Below are positions 9,172 to 25,919 of a stretch of DNA of 25,919 nucleotides, one piece after another; within the stretch, counting starts at the first letter, position 1, and each line of letters begins with the position of its first letter. The translations under genes were made by a program, and so were the position numbers. Below the pieces are notes generated by a model. It saw only the letters and a program-made list of their open reading frames with translations, did no database searches and was not told the origin of the DNA. The DNA is taken from IMG/VR virus record IMGVR_UViG_3300025086_000207, positions 1 through 25,919 of that record, one strand, 5' to 3'. This stretch comes from a virus.

Positions 9172-11250
9172 ATGGAATTAAAACCAAAATCACGCACTGA
9201 GGTTGAGAGCATTGTGCAGGATGCCATATCATCTGCCGTGGATTTTGTGGAGTCTGAGATAAGCCAAATCAGAATAAAATCACAACGTTACTACGACGGC
9301 GAAGTTGATTTAGGTTACGAGGATGGTCGCAGTAAGGTTGTAGCCACAAAAGTACGTGATACCGTACGTGCGGTAAAACCAAGTTTAATGCGCATTTTTC
9401 TTAGCTCCACAAAGCCAGTGGAATACGTTCCAAATGGTGCAGAAGATGTAGCAATGGCGGAGCAAGCTACTGAGTTTATGCAACATGAATTTGCTAGGCT
9501 AAACGGTTACCGCGTTTTAAATGACGCTTTCCACGACGCGTTAATTAAAAAGCAAGGTATTGTGAAAGCATATTGGAAGACAACGCCGCGCGCAGAAATT
9601 CACACGTACACAGATTTATCTGACGATGAATATACTTTTCTGGTGGCTGAAGATGACATTACCGTTCTTGAGCATACAATGGAAATGTCACTGTCAATGG
9701 ATGAAATGGGTATGGAAGTTGAAATGCCATCCCACAGTGTCAAACTCAGTCGGCAGGAGGAAGACGGCGAGTTAGTAATTGAAAGCGTACCTCCCGAAGA
9801 GTTCTTCATAGATAGATCCGCACGTATGCTATCCGACGCGTATGTGGTTGTGCATCGCACAGAAATGCGCGCCGGAGATGTAATTGAAATGGGCTTTGAT
9901 CCAGACGTTGTTACAAACCTTGATAGCTTTGATAGTGGCTCAGAAATGACTGAGGCTGAAGCACATGAGCGCCAAGGATTTGACAGTGATTTTGATCAAG
10001 ATGAACAAGATCCGGCAATGAAAAACGTGACAATCTCAGAAGCCTTTATGCGGATTGATGTGGATGGAACTGGTGTACCAGTTTTGCATAAAATAATATG
10101 CGGCGGTACGAGTTACGAAATGCTTGATTTTGAACGGTGCGATGAGTTGCCGTTTGCCAAAATGGAGATTGACCCAGAGCCACACACTTTTTACGGCAAG
10201 TCATTAGCTGATTTAATTATGGATGACCAAGACGCAGCTACTTCGATAATGCGTGGCATTTTAGATAATGTAGCAATGACGAATAATCCAAGAATTGGTA
10301 TCATTAGCGATTCAGTAAACATAGACGATGTGCTAAATAATGAAATTGGCGCCATTGTCAGAATGCGTACCGCTGGCGCAGTGCAAGACTTGTCAGTGCC
10401 ATTTGTTGCCGGACAAACACTGAGCGCGCTCACTTACTTAGACAGTGTAGTAGACCAGAAAACAGGTGTTACGCAGAACGTAGCCCTAAACCCTGACGCC
10501 ATGCAGTCAACAACTAAGGCTGCTGTGCAGGCGACTGTAGAGGCTGCCGCTGGTCAGGTTGAGGTTATGGTGAGAAATCTTGCGGATGGGGTGAAAGACC
10601 TATTCGGAATAATGCTGAGATTAATGAGCAAGAACGTAGACGAGGAAAAGATGATGAGAATGAATGGTATGTTCATTCCCGTTGACCCACGCGTTTGGGA
10701 TCAGTCTATGGATGTTGCCATTAATGTGGGTCTTGGCACAGGGCGCGAGGCGGAAAAGGTTGCCGCGCTTGGCCAAGCCCTGCAAATGCAAACAATGGTA
10801 TATCAAACTTACGGCCCGCAAAATGGTTTGGTTTCACTCACAAACATTAGAAACACATTGGCAGACCAATTAACTGTTTCCGGAATACGAAATGCTGACA
10901 GATATTTTGCGCCAATAACGCCAGAGATTGAGGCGCAAATGTTGCAAATGCAACAGCAGGCGCAGCAAGCGCAAGGGCAGCAACCAGATCCAAATGCTGC
11001 ATTCTTGCAGGCAGAGCAAATGAAAGCTCAATCTAAGATGCAATCAGATATGGCCAAGCTGCAACTGGACGCACAAAAAGCTGCTGCCAATGATGATTTG
11101 AAGCGAGATCAAATGGCGCAAGATCTTCTGGTAGACGCCGCAAAGGTTTACGGTGAATACGGAACTGCGGTAGACGTTGCTAGGATACAAGCTGAACAGG
11201 ATAAAATGAGAATGATTGGTGGAATTGCTCAAGGGCAGCAGCCACAATGA
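9172..11250 (+). CDS. portal protein (SU10/P22-like podoviral type)
   Basis: 692 aa. The portal is the dodecameric ring at the capsid vertex through which DNA is packaged and ejected. Recognisable family segments include RYYDGEVDLGYEDGRSKVV with VRDTVRAVKPSLMRIF (residues 43-78), a VPPEEFFIDRSAR clip-like region near 206-218, FYGKSLADLIMDDQDAATSI (340-359) and the GVTQNVALNPDAM loop (about 433-445). The C-terminal about 120 residues are Gln/Ala-rich helix, matching the long barrel seen in P22-like portals. Length is in the usual range for podoviral portals. The stop overlaps the next gene by 4 bases. Family membership is the firmest structural call together with the capsid. Confidence 0.88.
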   Translation: MELKPKSRTEVESIVQDAISSAVDFVESEISQIRIKSQRYYDGEVDLGYEDGRSKVVATKVRDTVRAVKPSLMRIFLSSTKPVEYVPNGAEDVAMAEQATEFMQHEFARLNGYRVLNDAFHDALIKKQGIVKAYWKTTPRAEIHTYTDLSDDEYTFLVAEDDITVLEHTMEMSLSMDEMGMEVEMPSHSVKLSRQEEDGELVIESVPPEEFFIDRSARMLSDAYVVVHRTEMRAGDVIEMGFDPDVVTNLDSFDSGSEMTEAEAHERQGFDSDFDQDEQDPAMKNVTISEAFMRIDVDGTGVPVLHKIICGGTSYEMLDFERCDELPFAKMEIDPEPHTFYGKSLADLIMDDQDAATSIMRGILDNVAMTNNPRIGIISDSVNIDDVLNNEIGAIVRMRTAGAVQDLSVPFVAGQTLSALTYLDSVVDQKTGVTQNVALNPDAMQSTTKAAVQATVEAAAGQVEVMVRNLADGVKDLFGIMLRLMSKNVDEEKMMRMNGMFIPVDPRVWDQSMDVAINVGLGTGREAEKVAALGQALQMQTMVYQTYGPQNGLVSLTNIRNTLADQLTVSGIRNADRYFAPITPEIEAQMLQMQQQAQQAQGQQPDPNAAFLQAEQMKAQSKMQSDMAKLQLDAQKAAANDDLKRDQMAQDLLVDAAKVYGEYGTAVDVARIQAEQDKMRMIGGIAQGQQPQ

Positions 11251-12493: not shown

Positions 12494-13453
12494 ATGGCAC
12501 AGCCATCAAATACCTTTGACTCCTATGATGGAGTCAATTCAATACGTGAGGATCTCTCAGACGTGATCCATAACGTGTCGCCGGAGGAAACTCCATTTTA
12601 CAGCAAAAGTAAAAAAACATCTGCCAGCAACACTTTGGTAGAGTGGCAGACGGCTTCGCTGAGAAGCAGTGCAGCTAACGCACATATTGAGGGTGACGCA
12701 ACAACTGCTGAAGCTCGAACTGCAACAACAAGATTGAACAATTCAACTCAAATCTTCAAAAATGCAGTCGTGGTTCCTGATACAGATGAAGGTCTTAATC
12801 TCGCGGGTAAAAGTCGTGAAATTGCATATCAGACCTTGCTGATCGCCAAAGAGCAAAAGTTAGACATCGAAAAAGCACTTTTCGACAATAACGCTAAAGT
12901 CGCTGGTAATGCTACAACTGCAAGGGAACTTGCAGGCGCTCCAGCTTGGATGACCACCAACGTGAACTTTGTTTCTGCAAGTTCTGGTGCTAATCCTAAC
13001 GGAACAGGCAGCAACGCACGTACCGACTCAGGCGCTCCTACAGCGTTTACTCAGGCTAAATTTGACACAGTTATGCAGTCAATTTGGGAAGAGGGCGGCA
13101 AGCCAGACACAGTGTATCTATCAGCGTTCCAGATGAACGTTGCTCTAGGCTTCACTGGTAACAATAACCAGCGTTCATCAGTGCAAGCTGGCGACGAGCG
13201 TGTTGTTAAGTCATTGGCTGTCTATGTAACTCCTTGGGGAAGCGTAGAGTTTATGCCAAGTCGTGAAAATCGTTCGCGTGACGTTTTCATAATGCAGGAT
13301 AATATGTGGGAAGTCGCAATGCTGCGTCCAACCAAAAATGTTGCATTGGCAAAAACGGGTGACAACACAACTCGACAAATTACTACAGAACTTACATTAG
13401 TCTGTAAAAATGAAGCTGCGTCTGGAATTATTGCAGATAACACAACTTCATAA
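12494..13453 (+). CDS. major capsid protein (SU10-type, DUF5309)
   Basis: 319 aa. The N-terminus reads TFDSYDGVNSIREDLSDVIH, then VSPEETPFYSKSKK and LVEWQTASL. This is the signature of the SU10-like HK97-fold capsid family (DUF5309). The remaining length is typical for this family, and no prohead-protease cleavage extension is evident. An AAAGGAC ribosome-binding site lies close to the ATG. A strong terminator starts 11 bases after the stop, which suits a highly expressed last gene of the head operon. Together with the SU10-like portal it places the virion in the short-tailed lineage, though host and genome type need not match phage SU10. Confidence 0.9.
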   Translation: MAQPSNTFDSYDGVNSIREDLSDVIHNVSPEETPFYSKSKKTSASNTLVEWQTASLRSSAANAHIEGDATTAEARTATTRLNNSTQIFKNAVVVPDTDEGLNLAGKSREIAYQTLLIAKEQKLDIEKALFDNNAKVAGNATTARELAGAPAWMTTNVNFVSASSGANPNGTGSNARTDSGAPTAFTQAKFDTVMQSIWEEGGKPDTVYLSAFQMNVALGFTGNNNQRSSVQAGDERVVKSLAVYVTPWGSVEFMPSRENRSRDVFIMQDNMWEVAMLRPTKNVALAKTGDNTTRQITTELTLVCKNEAASGIIADNTTS

Positions 13454-20054: not shown

Positions 20055-20219
20055 ATGTACGATAAAAAGATATTAATTAGTCTTAGTGAGACGCAGCACG
20101 ACGCAATCACTGATGCCGCACGAAAGATGGGTCTAAGTTTCACGGCGTTTGTGCGTGTCGCCGCAATCGGTATGGCTGCGGATCAGGGTGTCGAAGTCAA
20201 GCAGCCACGGGCCGACTGA
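20055..20219 (+). CDS. ribbon-helix-helix (Arc/CopG-like) regulator (54 aa)
   Basis: ATG 20055 behind GGAAGGGAAG; TGA 20217-20219 overlaps the next ATG. MYDKKILISLSETQHDAITD followed by AARKMGLSFTAFVRVAAIGM shows the RHH layout: a short beta strand (KKILISL), helix A, the G-L-S turn and helix B. RHH proteins dimerise, read the major groove with the strand and usually repress from inverted repeats. A 21-bp palindrome overlaps the promoter just upstream, with a second copy at 17233-17253. Repression of both early operons is therefore a specific, testable inference. It heads the recombination/replication module. Confidence 0.75.
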   Translation: MYDKKILISLSETQHDAITDAARKMGLSFTAFVRVAAIGMAADQGVEVKQPRAD

Positions 20220-20608
20220 TGGTTAACAGTAGAAACAAGGGCGCCGGATTTGAGCGTGAGGTATCATCATACCTCTTCGATGAGACAGGCATAAAGTTCA
20301 AAAGAGATCTCGAACAGTATAGAACTGGTGGCCACGCTGATTTAATTCCAGACGATCCAGACTTTCCGTTTACACTTGAGTTGAAACGCTACAAAGACGC
20401 GCCAATCGGTGGAGCGCCTGCGTGGTGGGATCAAGTTAAATTTGCGGCAGATCGTGAGGGCAAAATACCTTGCCTGATTTACAAATATGATCGCAAGCCA
20501 ATTCGTTGCGTCATACCCCTCAATTCAATTATGGCGGGCGGTGAAGATTATAGGGTGGAAGTTGATTTTCCTGCGTTCTGTTTTATTGTGCGGGAACTCA
20601 TGTCGTGA
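20219..20608 (+). CDS. PD-(D/E)XK endonuclease, Holliday-junction-resolvase-like (129 aa)
   Basis: 129 aa. Motifs: NKGAGFEREV (residues 6-15, catalytic Glu in helix 1), D41 in GGHADLI, E54-L-K56 in LELKRYK, and WWDQVK (69-74). This is the small Hjc/archaeal-type resolvase layout common in phage recombination modules, resolving branched DNA. All active-site residues seem intact. The ATG overlaps the RHH stop and the gene overlaps the next nuclease by 4 bases. A role with the RecE-like exonuclease and SSB downstream is inferred from synteny. Confidence 0.7.
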   Translation: MVNSRNKGAGFEREVSSYLFDETGIKFKRDLEQYRTGGHADLIPDDPDFPFTLELKRYKDAPIGGAPAWWDQVKFAADREGKIPCLIYKYDRKPIRCVIPLNSIMAGGEDYRVEVDFPAFCFIVRELMS

Positions 20609-21037: not shown

Positions 21038-21835
21038 ATGACAATTATAAAATCAGACGCCATGTCAAATGAACAGTACCACGAAGATCCAGCGTTTTCC
21101 TCAACTGATGTAAAAATGGTGAGCAACAAAAGTTTAGCGCATTGGGCTGGCAACGTAAGAAAAGAGAGCCACGCCTTTGACCTTGGCTCCAGTGTTCATG
21201 CACTCTTATTGGAACCCGAAAAAGATTTAGTTATTCGCGGGCCGGAGACGCGGCGCGGAAAGGCTTGGGCGGAGCTAAAAGAGGAAGCCGATAACACTGG
21301 AAAGATATTACTCACTGAATCTGACTTCGACCTCGCATCAGATATGGCGGAATCTTGCCTAAAAAATGAGATGGCAAATCACTTGTTAACCAACGATGAT
21401 TTGCTGGCGGAAGCATCATTTTTTGCAACCGACCCAGATATTGATATTCCACTCAAAACGAGGCCGGACGGATTATTGAGGAATAGCGGTATTGTGATTG
21501 ACATTAAAACCTGCCAAGATGCCAGCCCGCGAGGGTTTGAAAGAGCCGTCAGATCGTTCGGGTATGATTTGCAGGCGTCTCTATATTTACATATTTTAAG
21601 ATTAAATAATATTAAGGTTAAAAATTTCATTTTTATTTGTATTGAAAAGGATAAGCCGCACGTAATCGCCTGCCATGAACTGAGTGAGATGTATTTGAGA
21701 CACGCGCACAACAGAGTTACTGAAACTCTTATAAAAATGAAAAATGCCATTGACACTAATGATTTTGGAACTGGCTACCCAGACATAAACACAATTCATC
21801 TGCCCGCGTGGATGGAAAGTGAAAATTCTTTTTAA
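21038..21835 (+). CDS. RecE-like PD-(D/E)XK exonuclease
   Basis: 265 aa. The start MSNEQYHEDPAFSSTDVKMV (residues 9-28) and GSSVHALLLEP (50-60) are hallmarks of the RecE C-terminal exonuclease family. Active-site residues: H54, E125 (LAEASFF), D144 (RPDGLL), D155-I-K157 (VIDIKT) and Q179 (YDLQASLY). RecE degrades the 5' strand of duplex ends, exposing 3' single strands for annealing. The SSB-like gene next door fits that job. GGGAGCG precedes the ATG. A hairpin (21845-21861) separates it from the SSB-like gene. Confidence 0.85.
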   Translation: MTIIKSDAMSNEQYHEDPAFSSTDVKMVSNKSLAHWAGNVRKESHAFDLGSSVHALLLEPEKDLVIRGPETRRGKAWAELKEEADNTGKILLTESDFDLASDMAESCLKNEMANHLLTNDDLLAEASFFATDPDIDIPLKTRPDGLLRNSGIVIDIKTCQDASPRGFERAVRSFGYDLQASLYLHILRLNNIKVKNFIFICIEKDKPHVIACHELSEMYLRHAHNRVTETLIKMKNAIDTNDFGTGYPDINTIHLPAWMESENSF

Positions 21836-22558: not shown

Positions 22559-22602
22559 AACAGGAGCGCCCCTAAAAACCCATGAAAAAAAGGAGCAGGG
22601 AA

Positions 22603-24498
22603 ATGGTAGCAAAATCAATTAAAGAAAGCAAGTTCCCCATTGCGTATTGGTCGGAATATAGCCAGCCAATCATATCAAGCCTAGAATTAAAAAAAACAAG
22701 TCAGGGAGAATTTCATGGGCCGTGTCCAAATTGTTCCGGCGTGGATAGGTTTTGGATTAAAGAATTTAATGGTGAAGTTTTAGTAAATTGCAGGAAATGC
22801 CAAGACTATAAAGCAATTAAAGACAAATTAAAGGATATGTCTTTGTGGCCGACGCAATCAAGTAAGCCGCCAGAAATTGCAGTGCAGCCAATCAATTGGC
22901 CGGAAAGTAACGATATGTCCAAGCATCCATACTTACAAAAAAAGAAACTCAGCCTGCACAATGCAAAAATCGAAGGCGATAAACTTGTAATATCTATCAT
23001 AGATGTGACGGGTAAGCGCGTCGGCTACCAGTATATCGACGCGGAGGGCGATAAGAAGTTTAGCTATAATATGCCCGTGGCGGGTCATTTTAGCGTCATA
23101 GGTGGCCCAATTAAGGATTTCGCTTACATCACTGAGGGGTGGGCAAATGCGGCGACAATACACGAAGCCACAGACAAACCCGCAATATTTGCATTGAGCG
23201 CAAATAATATACCGTCAGTGGTTGATGCAATATCTCAGTCAAAACCCAAGTGTGAGCTTGTAGTTGCCGGAGATAACGACGAGGCGGGCCGTAAGGCGTG
23301 TGAAGCTACGTTTGAGCAACACGGCGTGGAATATATTTTACCAGAGCAGGAGGGCTGGGATTTCTCAGACCTGTGGGTCATCCAAGGCAGGGAAGCCACC
23401 AGAAAGGCGTTAACCGTCGCTAACGTGATGGACCAAATATTTATGCCGGAGGATGCAGTACCGCAACTCTCAAGGAACTACCTTATAAAGAGGTGGCTGA
23501 CGGAGGGCGGTATGTCCGTCATTTACGGGCAATCAAACGTGGGCAAATCTTTCTTCGCGCTGGATATGGGCTGGCACGTCGGCGGAGATAACGATTGGAA
23601 CGGCAGTAAGGTAAATGGCGGATCTGTATTATATTTAGCGACTGAGGGGGGTATGGCGTTCCACAATAGGGTCGTAGCCCTAAAACAGCATTACCCTAAC
23701 CAGAACAACGTTAAATTGGCTGTCAGGCCGTCTCCAGTAAACTTATTAGACCCAGATGTTGACATGGCGTCACTCATAAAACTTTGCGCAGAAATATCTA
23801 AACGACACGGCCCACTCAAAATGATCGTAGTTGACACGCTCAGTCGCGCAATGTCGGGCGGCAATGAGAATGCACCAGAGGCGATGACAAGTGTTATCTC
23901 GAATTGCGATAAACTCAGGGTTATTACCAAGGCGCACGTCTCAATTGTGCATCATTCGGGGAAGGATAAAGCCGCTGGTGCGCGTGGGCATAGCTCACTT
24001 CGTGCGGCTACCGATTCTGAGATAGAGCTAGAACACGACGAAGTTACGGGGCTGCGCACAGCGAAAGCCACCAAGCAGCGCGATATGGAAACTGGAACAG
24101 TCTTTACGTTTAAGCTTAAAGTGGTTGAGCTTGGCATTGATGAGGACGGAGATGCCGTCACAACGTGTGTCATCCATGAGGCCAGCGAGAGTGAAATTGC
24201 CGAAGCCAGCAAGCCAAAGATAAAGGGCAAGAACCAGCTTATCATGCGCAACGCATTTACCCAACTTAGGGGTGAGGGCGTGGGTCAGCCAAATCATGCG
24301 GGGGCTGGATTCCCAGAACCAAGAACGTATTGGATGATAAAGGAAGAGGATCTCAGAAACCATTTCTTGGGTAAGGTGACGAACGCCAGCAATCCAAGAT
24401 CTAGCTACAAGCAGGCGATTGATGCGCTGATGAGTGCCGGACATTTGGTGCAAAACGATGGATTTGTGTGGTTTTTGGATAGTGAGGGGAAATGCTGA
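22603..24498 (+). CDS. primase-helicase (zinc finger, TOPRIM, RecA-type ATPase)
   Basis: 631 aa from ATG 22603: AGGAG at 22591-22595 sits 7 bases before it, whereas the in-frame ATG 22582 would include that site in its own codons. Zinc finger C41xxC44...C63xxC66 (CPNC, CRKC). TOPRIM: ITEGWANAAT (176-185) and AGDNDEAGRK (222-231). RecA/RepA-like ATPase: Walker A GQSNVGKS (309-316), Walker B MIVVDTLSRA (407-416), HHSGKD (450-455) and GARGHSSL (459-466). It would prime and unwind phage DNA like a fused gp4/DnaG-DnaB. The C-terminal about 90 residues look like a winged-helix. An origin-like repeat cluster begins at its stop. Confidence 0.9.
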   Translation: MVAKSIKESKFPIAYWSEYSQPIISSLELKKTSQGEFHGPCPNCSGVDRFWIKEFNGEVLVNCRKCQDYKAIKDKLKDMSLWPTQSSKPPEIAVQPINWPESNDMSKHPYLQKKKLSLHNAKIEGDKLVISIIDVTGKRVGYQYIDAEGDKKFSYNMPVAGHFSVIGGPIKDFAYITEGWANAATIHEATDKPAIFALSANNIPSVVDAISQSKPKCELVVAGDNDEAGRKACEATFEQHGVEYILPEQEGWDFSDLWVIQGREATRKALTVANVMDQIFMPEDAVPQLSRNYLIKRWLTEGGMSVIYGQSNVGKSFFALDMGWHVGGDNDWNGSKVNGGSVLYLATEGGMAFHNRVVALKQHYPNQNNVKLAVRPSPVNLLDPDVDMASLIKLCAEISKRHGPLKMIVVDTLSRAMSGGNENAPEAMTSVISNCDKLRVITKAHVSIVHHSGKDKAAGARGHSSLRAATDSEIELEHDEVTGLRTAKATKQRDMETGTVFTFKLKVVELGIDEDGDAVTTCVIHEASESEIAEASKPKIKGKNQLIMRNAFTQLRGEGVGQPNHAGAGFPEPRTYWMIKEEDLRNHFLGKVTNASNPRSSYKQAIDALMSAGHLVQNDGFVWFLDSEGKC

Positions 24499-24674
24499 AG
24501 TGTATGAAAAGTGTATGAATTGGGGTTGTAATAAAAACAATGACTTAGACGGCCAATTCATACGTTTCATACGTTTTCCTACAGTAATTCCTACGAAACC
24601 ATAAAGTGTATGAATGTAGGAATATACCTTTAGGTATTCCTACAATTCCTACAATGGGCAGATTGGAGTTTAAT
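24499..24674 (+). other. candidate replication origin (heptamer-rich non-coding region)
   Basis: A gene-free 176-bp gap directly after the primase-helicase. It holds ten GTA(T/G)GAA heptamers in both orientations (24502-24652), an AT-rich stretch (24528-24545) and an imperfect palindrome (24615-24644). Dense short iterons next to the helicase loader/helicase gene are typical of phage and plasmid origins. Binding by the HTH/winged-helix protein or the primase-helicase itself is inference. Confidence 0.55.
24502..24652 (+). repeat. ten-copy GTAKGAA iteron cluster
   Basis: Forward copies: GTATGAA at 24502, 24513, 24608; GTAGGAA at 24616. Reverse copies: TTCATAC at 24557, 24566; TTCCTAC at 24576, 24588, 24637, 24646. 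Within each group the start-to-start spacing is 8-12 bp, near one helical turn. Flanks are also shared (AAGTGTATGAA three times). An inverted pair, TGTAGGAATATACC with GGTATTCCTACA, could form a hairpin (24615-24644). Confidence 0.85.
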
Positions 24675-24851
24675 ATGAGTGAGGCGAGGACGTTTGATGA
24701 GAAGCTTAACTCTTGCCGCGATATTGAAGAGCTTGAGGGTTTCGCTAACCGCCGTCGCTTTAATCCTGCGTTGCCCAAGTGGTCGGAGGATGAAAGACGA
24801 AAGATAATATTTAGAAAAGCGGAAATGATAAACAAAAGGAAAAAGAAATGA
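24675..24851 (+). CDS. small basic protein (58 aa)
   Basis: 58 aa from ATG 24675, chosen over in-frame ATG 24606 because the latter would run through the iterons and TTGGAG sits 5-9 bases before 24675. Starts MSEARTFDEKLNSCRDIEEL, continues with FANRRRFNPALPKWSEDERR and ends in Lys/Arg (NKRKKK). A two-helix, DNA-binding-like small protein; no family recognised. ATGA overlap with the next gene. Confidence 0.6.
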   Translation: MSEARTFDEKLNSCRDIEELEGFANRRRFNPALPKWSEDERRKIIFRKAEMINKRKKK

Positions 24852-25162
24852 ACGACAAGGTTATACCGACTGAGAAGAAAATTGTTTTGCCGGAAAATGT
24901 AAGGTCGAGCGTTTTGCTTGAGGCTGGTGAACTTATCAATGGTGCGCGCCAAATACATTACGGACAGCCAAAAGAAAACTTTGAAACGACTGCCGCATTA
25001 TTTGGTGCATACTTGGGGTGTGATATTAGCGCCGCAGACGTGTGTCACCTAATGGCGCTTCTCAAAATTGCGAGGCTGCGCAATGGTGGCCATAGGGATT
25101 CGAGCGTGGACAGTTGTGGGTATATGGCGCTGGGTGCGGAAATGTCAGACGCGGGGACTTGA
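24848..25162 (+). CDS. DUF6378-like protein (104 aa)
   Basis: 104 aa. Contains LLEAGELINGARQIHYGQPK, ENFETTAALFGAYLG, then ADVCHLMALLKIARL and GHRDSSVDSCGYMALGAEMS. This matches the phage family DUF6378, whose helical pattern, with acidic residues spaced for metal (E26, E43, D96-type positions), recalls MazG-like nucleotide pyrophosphohydrolases. The MazG link is a family-level suspicion, not shown here. It may tune nucleotide pools during replication. The stop overlaps the -35 of the promoter for the structured RNA. Confidence 0.7.
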   Translation: MNDKVIPTEKKIVLPENVRSSVLLEAGELINGARQIHYGQPKENFETTAALFGAYLGCDISAADVCHLMALLKIARLRNGGHRDSSVDSCGYMALGAEMSDAGT

Positions 25163-25302: not shown

Positions 25303-25509
25303 ATGGCATACGAATTAAAATTAGTTTTAAATTTAAAGTGTGAAGATAATGAAGAGCAGATGGATGAGACTGAAATGCTAACGAGTTATTTAGGTGAGAG
25401 ATTGGTAAATAATGCTGACCCAAATAGGTTGATGCAAAGCCTTGCGGAAGCTTTGATTGAAATGGACAGCGAGGATATATTTAAAATAGATGCAAGGACA
25501 ATGCATTGA
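25303..25509 (+). CDS. small acidic protein under attenuator control (68 aa)
   Basis: 68 aa with GGAG just before the ATG. Starts MAYELKLVLNLKCEDNEEQM (a beta-strand then an acidic stretch) and ends with helix-rich LMQSLAEALIEMDSEDIFKI. No family recognised. It is the only gene between the leader RNA and the dif-like region, so its level would be set by read-through of the terminator. It may be a regulator or the first gene of a transcript reaching the terminase. Confidence 0.6.
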   Translation: MAYELKLVLNLKCEDNEEQMDETEMLTSYLGERLVNNADPNRLMQSLAEALIEMDSEDIFKIDARTMH

Positions 25510-25681
25510 GTTGCTGTTGTGCTATATGTCCTCTGCAAGACGCACCGACAGCAAAGCGCAGGCGCGCGCGAGTAAATCATTTTGTGGGGTACGTCAATAC
25601 CCCAAAAGCTTTACCAAGGGCTTTCATATGCGACATTGATACCCCAGAAATAGCTATGTCATTGTTTCCATTACATAATAA
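25510..25681 (+). other. gene-free region left of the dif-like site, with TACCCCA repeats
   Basis: No convincing gene. TGGGGTA (25585-25591) and TACCCCA (25598-25604) form a 7-bp hairpin with a 6-nt loop; a further TACCCCA lies at 25640-25646. Two open frames (TTG 25506-25709 and a 37-aa one near 25525) have odd composition and no ribosome-binding site. Its length (about 170 bp) is similar to that of accessory sequences beside plasmid Xer sites, but it lies on the XerD side here. Confidence 0.45.
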
Positions 25682-25709
25682 ATTTAACATAATGCGTATT
25701 ATGCGATAA
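25682..25709 (+). other. XerCD dif-like recombination site
   Basis: Left arm ATTTAACATAA (25682-25692), 6-bp centre TGCGTA, right arm TTATGCGATAA (25699-25709). On the opposite strand this reads TTATCGCATAA, TACGCA, TTATGTTAAAT. The E. coli dif arms are GGTGCGCATAA and TTATGTTAAAT: the XerD arm is identical at 11 of 11 bases, and the XerC arm keeps the inner CGCATAA. The centre differs from chromosomal TGTATA, as in known phage-borne sites such as that of CTXphi. No recombinase gene is present in the window, so host XerC/XerD would be needed. Possible uses are integration at host dif or resolution of genome multimers. Confidence 0.8.
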
Positions 25710-25855
25710 TGGCGCAAAATTACCCCCCCCCGCCAAAGATTTTGCTAGGGTTTGTTTATGTATAATCCGACGCACACGCTTGCCCCCCGCCACCCCCCCC
25801 CTTGCCTTACTGCGCAGGCTTAATGTAAAATTTTAAAAAAACTGGAGTTTATTTA
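25710..25855 (+). promoter_or_regulatory. terminase upstream region: poly-C tracts and TATAAT box
   Basis: No gene. C9 at 25723-25731, then TATAAT at 25761-25766 (no convincing -35), then C6-GCCA-C9 at 25783-25801. The opposite strand is therefore G-rich and could form a quadruplex. A transcript from the TATAAT box would carry the second C-tract in its leader. CTGGAG (25842-25847) is the ribosome-binding site of the next gene. Confidence 0.5.
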
Positions 25856-25919
25856 ATGGCAGGCAGAGCTTTACGGCGCAGAATTTTAGGTGAGATTAAG
25901 AGCAAGGGCGGCGCAGATT
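25856..25919 (+). CDS. start of probable terminase small subunit (3' truncated)
   Basis: Only 21 residues are in the window: MAGRALRRRILGEIKSKGGA then D. The start is clear (CTGGAG 8 bases upstream). A basic opening followed by ILxEIxxKGG resembles the first helix of HTH-type small terminase subunits or other phage HTH proteins, in which an HTH for pac/cos recognition follows. The absence of terminase genes elsewhere in the window and the end-of-early-region position support this, but the fragment is too short for certainty. Confidence 0.45.
   Translation, partial: MAGRALRRRILGEIKSKGGAD

Follow-up and report, generated by a model that had tools for sequence, protein, structure and literature searches.

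A putative host XerC/XerD recombination site beside the terminase genes of tailed phages

Site and Gene Neighbourhood

The window, that is, the whole stretch of DNA that was analysed, is an IMG/VR virus contig (G000) of 25,919 bp that lacks terminal repeats and, therefore, does not represent a whole genome. Between its replication module, which includes genes for RusA, an exonuclease, an SSB-like protein, the primase-helicase, and a DUF6378 protein, and its packaging module there is a gap in which a dif-like site lies. The main features of the window are as follows:

9172..11250, plus strand: portal protein (phrog_1216)
12494..13453, plus strand: major capsid protein (phrog_1328)
20219..20608, plus strand: RusA-like Holliday junction resolvase family protein
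22582..24498, plus strand: primase-helicase, last gene of the replication module
24530..24549, plus strand: second copy of an IHF-like motif, AATAAAAACAATGACTTAGA, directly after the primase-helicase gene and about 1 kb from the Xer site
24848..25162, plus strand: DUF6378 protein (PF19905), a neighbour common to many relatives
25303..25509, plus strand: 68-aa ORF on the opposite flank of the site, kept in several relatives
25653..25672, minus strand: IHF-like accessory motif, AATGGAAACAATGACATAGC, a degenerate copy located 9 bp beyond the XerD arm (consensus ATGCAATGNWATCAATGACTTAGC)
25682..25709, minus strand: dif-like XerC/XerD site of 28 bp, TTATCGCATAA TACGCA TTATGTTAAAT, predicted from the match of its arms and from the position and orientation kept in relatives
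25682..25692, minus strand: XerD-type arm, TTATGTTAAAT, identical to that of E. coli dif at 11/11 positions
25693..25698, minus strand: central hexamer, TACGCA, which differs from the chromosomal-type NNNATA centre
25699..25709, minus strand: XerC-type arm, TTATCGCATAA, of which the inner 7 of 11 positions equal E. coli dif
25723..25731, plus strand: C-tract on the terminase side of the Xer site, read from the sequence
25783..25801, plus strand: second C-rich tract, before terS, read from the sequence
25856..25919, plus strand: start of the terminase small subunit gene (terS), cut by the end of the window

The near-identical contig L115, which overlaps the window, continues past its end into terS (Sf6-type, PF20901) and then terL, and the site lies 146 bp upstream of terS. 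The plus-strand letters at positions 25682-25709 are ATTTAACATAATGCGTATTATGCGATAA. Two 11-bp arms resembling those of host dif surround a 6-bp centre, and the site agrees with E. coli dif at 18/22 arm positions and at 20/28 positions overall. An arm score of 18/22 was reached by one of 500 order-2 Markov sequences, each of the length of the window, and the site is the single match in the whole record. The region is non-coding, save for a spurious 67-aa TTG frame. Thus, the dif geometry, the extent of both arm matches, and the non-coding position by the terminase, all of them claimed by a sequence-only reading of this DNA, were borne out, and so was the absence of an integrase, as a search of the window record for tyrosine recombinases (PF00589) found none. 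The podovirus-like virion proposed by the same reading fits the portal and major head proteins, which are related to those of LUZ24/phiM5-type phages; the closest named capsid is that of Octadecabacter Antarctic DB virus 2 (68%), followed by those of the LUZ24/phiM5 type.

Roseobacter CRP-8xx phages were considered as relatives and discarded, since they have in common with the window only part of the primase-helicase, and the site is absent from them. In the comparison of the window with L115, register is lost at the poly-C run (from window position 25731 onwards), and these differences in C-tract length may be either an assembly error or real.

Recurrence of the Site in Other Phages

A scan of IMG/VR with the pattern CGCATAA-N6-TTATGTTAAAT, that is, with exact arms and a 6-bp centre, gave at least 120 matches. 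As controls in the same scan, the reversed pattern gave no match, a 5-bp spacer gave two, and a 7-bp spacer gave 53, none of which (0/53) is near a terminase and 38 of which, like filamentous phages, code for a Zot-like protein. Among the 120 matches listed, TerL or TerS is encoded at up to 2.5 kb from the site in 61, and two unrelated terminase families are involved. In 39 of the 120 listed, a terminase like that of the window follows at most 2.5 kb downstream, and all except one of these sites (38/39) have the same orientation; in another 22 the site adjoins an unrelated TerL of the phrog_2 type.

The genes that flank the sites in relatives are often just 30-80% identical to those of the window, and the 28-mer, when compared across related phages as the sequence-only reading had suggested, is kept at one genomic position in these diverged relatives. 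Across a set of 25 non-redundant terL1 sites, the inner positions of the centre (2-4) carry 0.06-0.16 bits and are nearly free, the flanks carry about 0.1-0.23 bits per position, and the final base of the centre is A in all of them; the arms, unlike the centre and the flanks, were set by the search pattern and, therefore, their conservation in this set is not independent evidence. An independent set of records, gathered by capsid relationship regardless of the site, contains a related site in 9 of 46 relatives of the major capsid protein, many of these records being fragments. The site is absent from some related phages, namely Octadecabacter DB virus 2, phiM5, and HTVC010P-type isolates, and the exact site was found in none of five phage isolates searched (HTVC010P, MEP301, Greip, Skadi-2, and Hodr). 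Arms come in three versions among the phage sites, and the third class, TTATGACAAAT, is also located beside terminases and has variable centres.

The exchange of modules at the site was considered as well. A first comparison seemed to show a drop of identity in some pairs of phages, and a systematic search left a single pair (L114/L174), in which the drop is probably due to an insertion, since the L114 site lies about 640 bp farther from terS. In the alignment of L163 and L191, homology runs on beyond the site, and module exchange is not proposed here.

Other arrangements were also observed. The 61,867-bp contig G016 has two sites (at 21294 and 57433), 36 kb apart and in different phage contexts, and could be a chimera or consist of tandem genomes. 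Extra half sites similar to the XerD arm (TATTATGTTAA) occur tens of bases past the XerD arm in L163, L191, and L168. Five contigs of 73-155 kb (L089, L107, L110, L149, and L164) carry dif-like sites with non-chromosomal centres, and that of L089 is near a replication protein gene.

Flanking Motif and C-Tracts

The motif found next to the Xer site has a consensus of about ATGCAATGNWATCAATGACTTAGC, and contains WATCAANNNNTTR, the IHF consensus. The strict motif consensus is present at up to 150 bp from 27 of 57 non-redundant sites, as opposed to 4.3% of 300-bp windows taken at random. When a weight matrix was trained on these phage sites and used at a level above 98% of the background, it detected the motif at 10 of 44 sites that did not belong to the training group, at 0 of 16 filamentous-phage sites, and at 3 of 46 genome sites. 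No more than two copies of the motif occur in the long contigs examined and, wherever it is present, one copy is situated no farther than about 60 bp from the site; G014 and G009, like the window, have another copy roughly 1 kb upstream. Moreover, a weak motif was noticed 11-13 bp from the XerD arm of alphaproteobacterial chromosomal dif in L354, L355, L359, L360, and L281. Since it occurs by some chromosomal dif sites, the motif may belong to dif itself as an accessory element.

C-tracts accompany the site on its terminase side, at up to 150 bp, in 36 of the 57 non-redundant cases, compared with 0.5% of background windows. The usual order among the C-tract-bearing sites is motif, Xer site, C-tract, and terminase, even when the Xer site is reversed, and in the phage C72C1 the motif, a 15/18 dif-like site, and C-tracts are all located between terS and terL. 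The pelagiphage isolates HTVC010P (L598) and Greip (L600) have C-tracts upstream of terL and lack the dif-like site; therefore, the C-tract probably belongs to packaging.

Arms and Centres Compared with Chromosomal dif

Two metagenome-assembled genomes (MAGs) include both a phage site and a chromosomal dif. In the Reyranella MAG, the phage contig carries TTATCGCATAA CATGCA TTATGACAAAT, and the chromosomal dif, which adjoins mazG-, tatD- and metG-like genes, is TTATCGTATAA TATATA TTATGACAAAT. In the Rhodobacteraceae MAG, the phage contig carries ATGTCCGATAA TGTATA TTATGTTAACT and the chromosome ATATCCGATAA TATATA TTATGTTAACT. The arms of phage and chromosome agree at 21/22 positions in both pairs, the unusual ones included, with the proviso that the bins may hold mis-binned contigs, and the centres differ at 3/6 positions in the Reyranella pair and at 1/6 in the Rhodobacteraceae pair.

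Phages with the CCGATAA/TTATGTTAACT arms gave at least 120 matches, and 69 of those listed are by a terminase. Within these 69 terminase-adjacent sites listed, the centre is TGTATA in 49 and TATATA in one, so that the commonest phage centre of this type is one base off the chromosomal TATATA. The latter centre was found in 3/3 genomes of the genus of the Rhodobacteraceae MAG with a perfect match to the CCGATAA/TTATGTTAACT chromosomal arms. As a caution, 198 Rhodobacteraceae genomes yielded matches whose centres are different, TCAGTA being one example, and part of these matches may represent chromosomal dif. In this family dif-like sites with centres like TCAGTA and TCAATA are frequent, several of these sites having similar downstream ORFs, and chromosomal centres may be less uniform.

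As regards the window arms, the centre ends in ATA in 121 of 134 gammaproteobacterial chromosomal sites and, among the matches listed, in 3 of 61 terminase-adjacent phage sites (Fisher p of about 7e-33, ignoring relatedness). Zot-encoding filamentous phages from the same scan have a chromosome-type centre in 8 of 12 cases among the matches listed. Since the site is kept at one conserved position in diverged relatives and its arms track those of the chromosomal dif in two pairs, the 28-mer of the window is very probably a site for the host XerC and XerD.

Lifestyle and Alternative Explanations

An element that merely resembles dif could serve as a pac or cos site, or as a regulatory site for TerS or another phage protein. 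C-tracts and IHF-like motifs are familiar around packaging sites, and both surround the element at its terminase-side position; likewise, HTVC010P and Greip have C-tracts ahead of terL without any dif-like site. However, a site unrelated to Xer recombination would hardly explain why the arms vary along with the host dif arms, why the element stands beside two unrelated terminases in either orientation, and why the spacing is strictly 6, which makes this explanation very improbable. The sequence-only reading had regarded the site as a possible attP or resolution site, and of this claim the host-XerCD type of the site has stood, given its conserved position and its arms, whereas lysogeny by Xer integration at the host terminus has not. 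Integration by XerCD recombination with the chromosomal dif, with a partly mismatched centre being tolerated, would be in line with the match between phage and chromosomal arms and with the single-base difference in the CCGATAA-type phages. In addition, integrase genes are mostly absent: as in IMEX, which have no integrase of their own, no PF00589 protein is present in 47 of the 49 records that bear the site, and among these 47 are G049 and G089, which have exactly overlapping contig ends (123 and 127 bp, respectively) and look complete. Integration keeps some probability since VGJphi, which inserts although four bases of its centre, those close to the XerD side, are not the same as in dif1, shows that a partial mismatch of the centre need not forbid it (PMC5357621). 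Nevertheless, the 6-bp centre must pair in strand exchange, and the phage centres are systematically unlike the chromosomal ones; they differ on both sides of the hexamer, are very diverse, and do not have the compatibility with chromosomal dif expected of an IMEX, whereas chromosome-type centres do occur among the filamentous phages of the IMG/VR scan. Moreover, neither the scan of GTDB genomes for TerL nor a sample of 385 alphaproteobacterial genomes revealed a prophage bounded by two dif sites. Chromosomal prophages with a related TerL in large contigs (G346, G440, G386, L231, L236, and L240) are devoid of a dif-like site next to the terminase, and that of G440 has an integrase gene 12 kb from terL. 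Integration is thus not supported by the centres, and we consider it improbable.

A narrower form of the intramolecular role favoured below, tied to lysogeny, is that of a phage-plasmid, in which the prophage would persist as an extrachromosomal circle and the site would resolve its multimers, as cer, psi, and the loxP of P1 do. The logic would be the same as for the divergent centres between replicons (PMC2533119), the conserved flanking motif is reminiscent of the accessory sequences found at Xer sites of plasmids, and site-bearing contigs occur free. Phage-plasmids would, however, be expected to carry partition genes, and ParA-type proteins (PF13614) passed the cut-off in 0 of 38 site-bearing records, so that the search for a tyrosine recombinase or partition genes suggested by the sequence-only reading was negative on both counts, in the window for the former and in these records for the latter. 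No lysogeny genes were recognised among the ORFs sampled in G014 and G049, and the relatives sought by TerL among the plasmids of PLSDB never exceeded 37% identity. An extrachromosomal prophage, therefore, seems rather unlikely. G049 also encodes a GcrA-like protein (PF07750; L548:16392-16943), which points to an alphaproteobacterial host.

Comparison with Known Systems

In P1, which offers the nearest model, loxP is near pac, and recombination by the self-encoded Cre circularises the genome and resolves dimers, the prophage being a plasmid. The phages described here are similar to P1 in that a site of the tyrosine-recombinase type, suited to recombination between genome copies, is near the packaging locus of a tailed phage, as found in the 61 terminase-adjacent matches among the 120 listed. 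However, P1 has its own Cre, whereas the window phage is devoid of a tyrosine recombinase and its site matches the host XerCD; furthermore, P1 is a plasmid prophage, whereas lysogeny would be hypothetical in the present phages. CTXphi, VGJphi, TLCphi, and the gonococcal island insert at dif via XerCD, and they share with the phages described here a dif-like site without an integrase of their own. Nevertheless, Zot-encoding filamentous phages mostly have either a chromosome-type centre or a 7-bp spacing, and the tailed phage sites have neither.

In multichromosome Proteobacteria, non-homologous replicons have divergent dif centres, and chromosome fusion has been proposed as the penalty for identical ones (PMC2533119). 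The dif sites of second chromosomes, such as dif2 of V. cholerae and others, are similar to the phage sites in that host-type arms are combined with a centre diverged from that of the main chromosome (PMC2533119); however, dif2-type sites are located at the replication terminus, whereas those of the phages adjoin the terminase. At cer and psi, host XerCD resolve extrachromosomal DNA with an accessory sequence beside the core, which is what is predicted here. However, cer has an 8-bp centre and requires PepA and other accessory proteins (PMC5357621), whereas the phage centre is 6 bp long and its flanking motif is IHF-like.

Proposed Role and Biological Significance

The layout of the locus, with an IHF-like motif, an Xer site, a C-tract, and terS-terL, is consistent with a host-XerCD recombination site at the phage packaging locus, which probably serves intramolecular recombination, either circularisation or multimer resolution. 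The arms, which copy those of the host dif, would be bound by the host XerC and XerD, and the diverged centre would allow the site to recombine with its own copies and to avoid the chromosomal dif. A core unlike the site of the host chromosome suggests that the enzymes are borrowed for the phage's own genome and not for insertion. The likeliest use would be the recombination between two copies of the site within one DNA molecule. Thus, if the genome is terminally redundant and each of its ends includes the site, it could be circularised after injection, or multimers could be resolved. If headful packaging started inside terS and ran away from the site, however, a packaged molecule would not have a copy of the site at each of its two ends, which counts against this use. 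The binding and recombination by XerCD, the intramolecular reaction, the terminal redundancy, and the step of the phage cycle that they might serve are what we infer from sequence comparison.

A broader proposal can be made more tentatively. In integrase-less marine tailed phages of several lineages, this could be a composite packaging-end locus at which the host XerC and XerD circularise or resolve the genome in the lytic cycle, with centres selected to avoid the host dif. If this were true, the host machinery for chromosome resolution would be a lytic host factor for such phages.

Documented cases of the hijacking of Xer recombination involve filamentous and other small phages as well as plasmids and islands, and no report of Xer borrowing by tailed phages at the terminase was found in searches of open-access papers. 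This conserved variant of Xer-site borrowing in tailed phages is real and apparently undescribed. With a conserved site for host recombinases at the packaging end, XerC and XerD would count as host factors of tailed phages. Moreover, arms that track the host dif would provide a sequence-based clue to the hosts of uncultured phages, and the phage sites would offer a natural test of how the divergence of centres keeps replicons apart.
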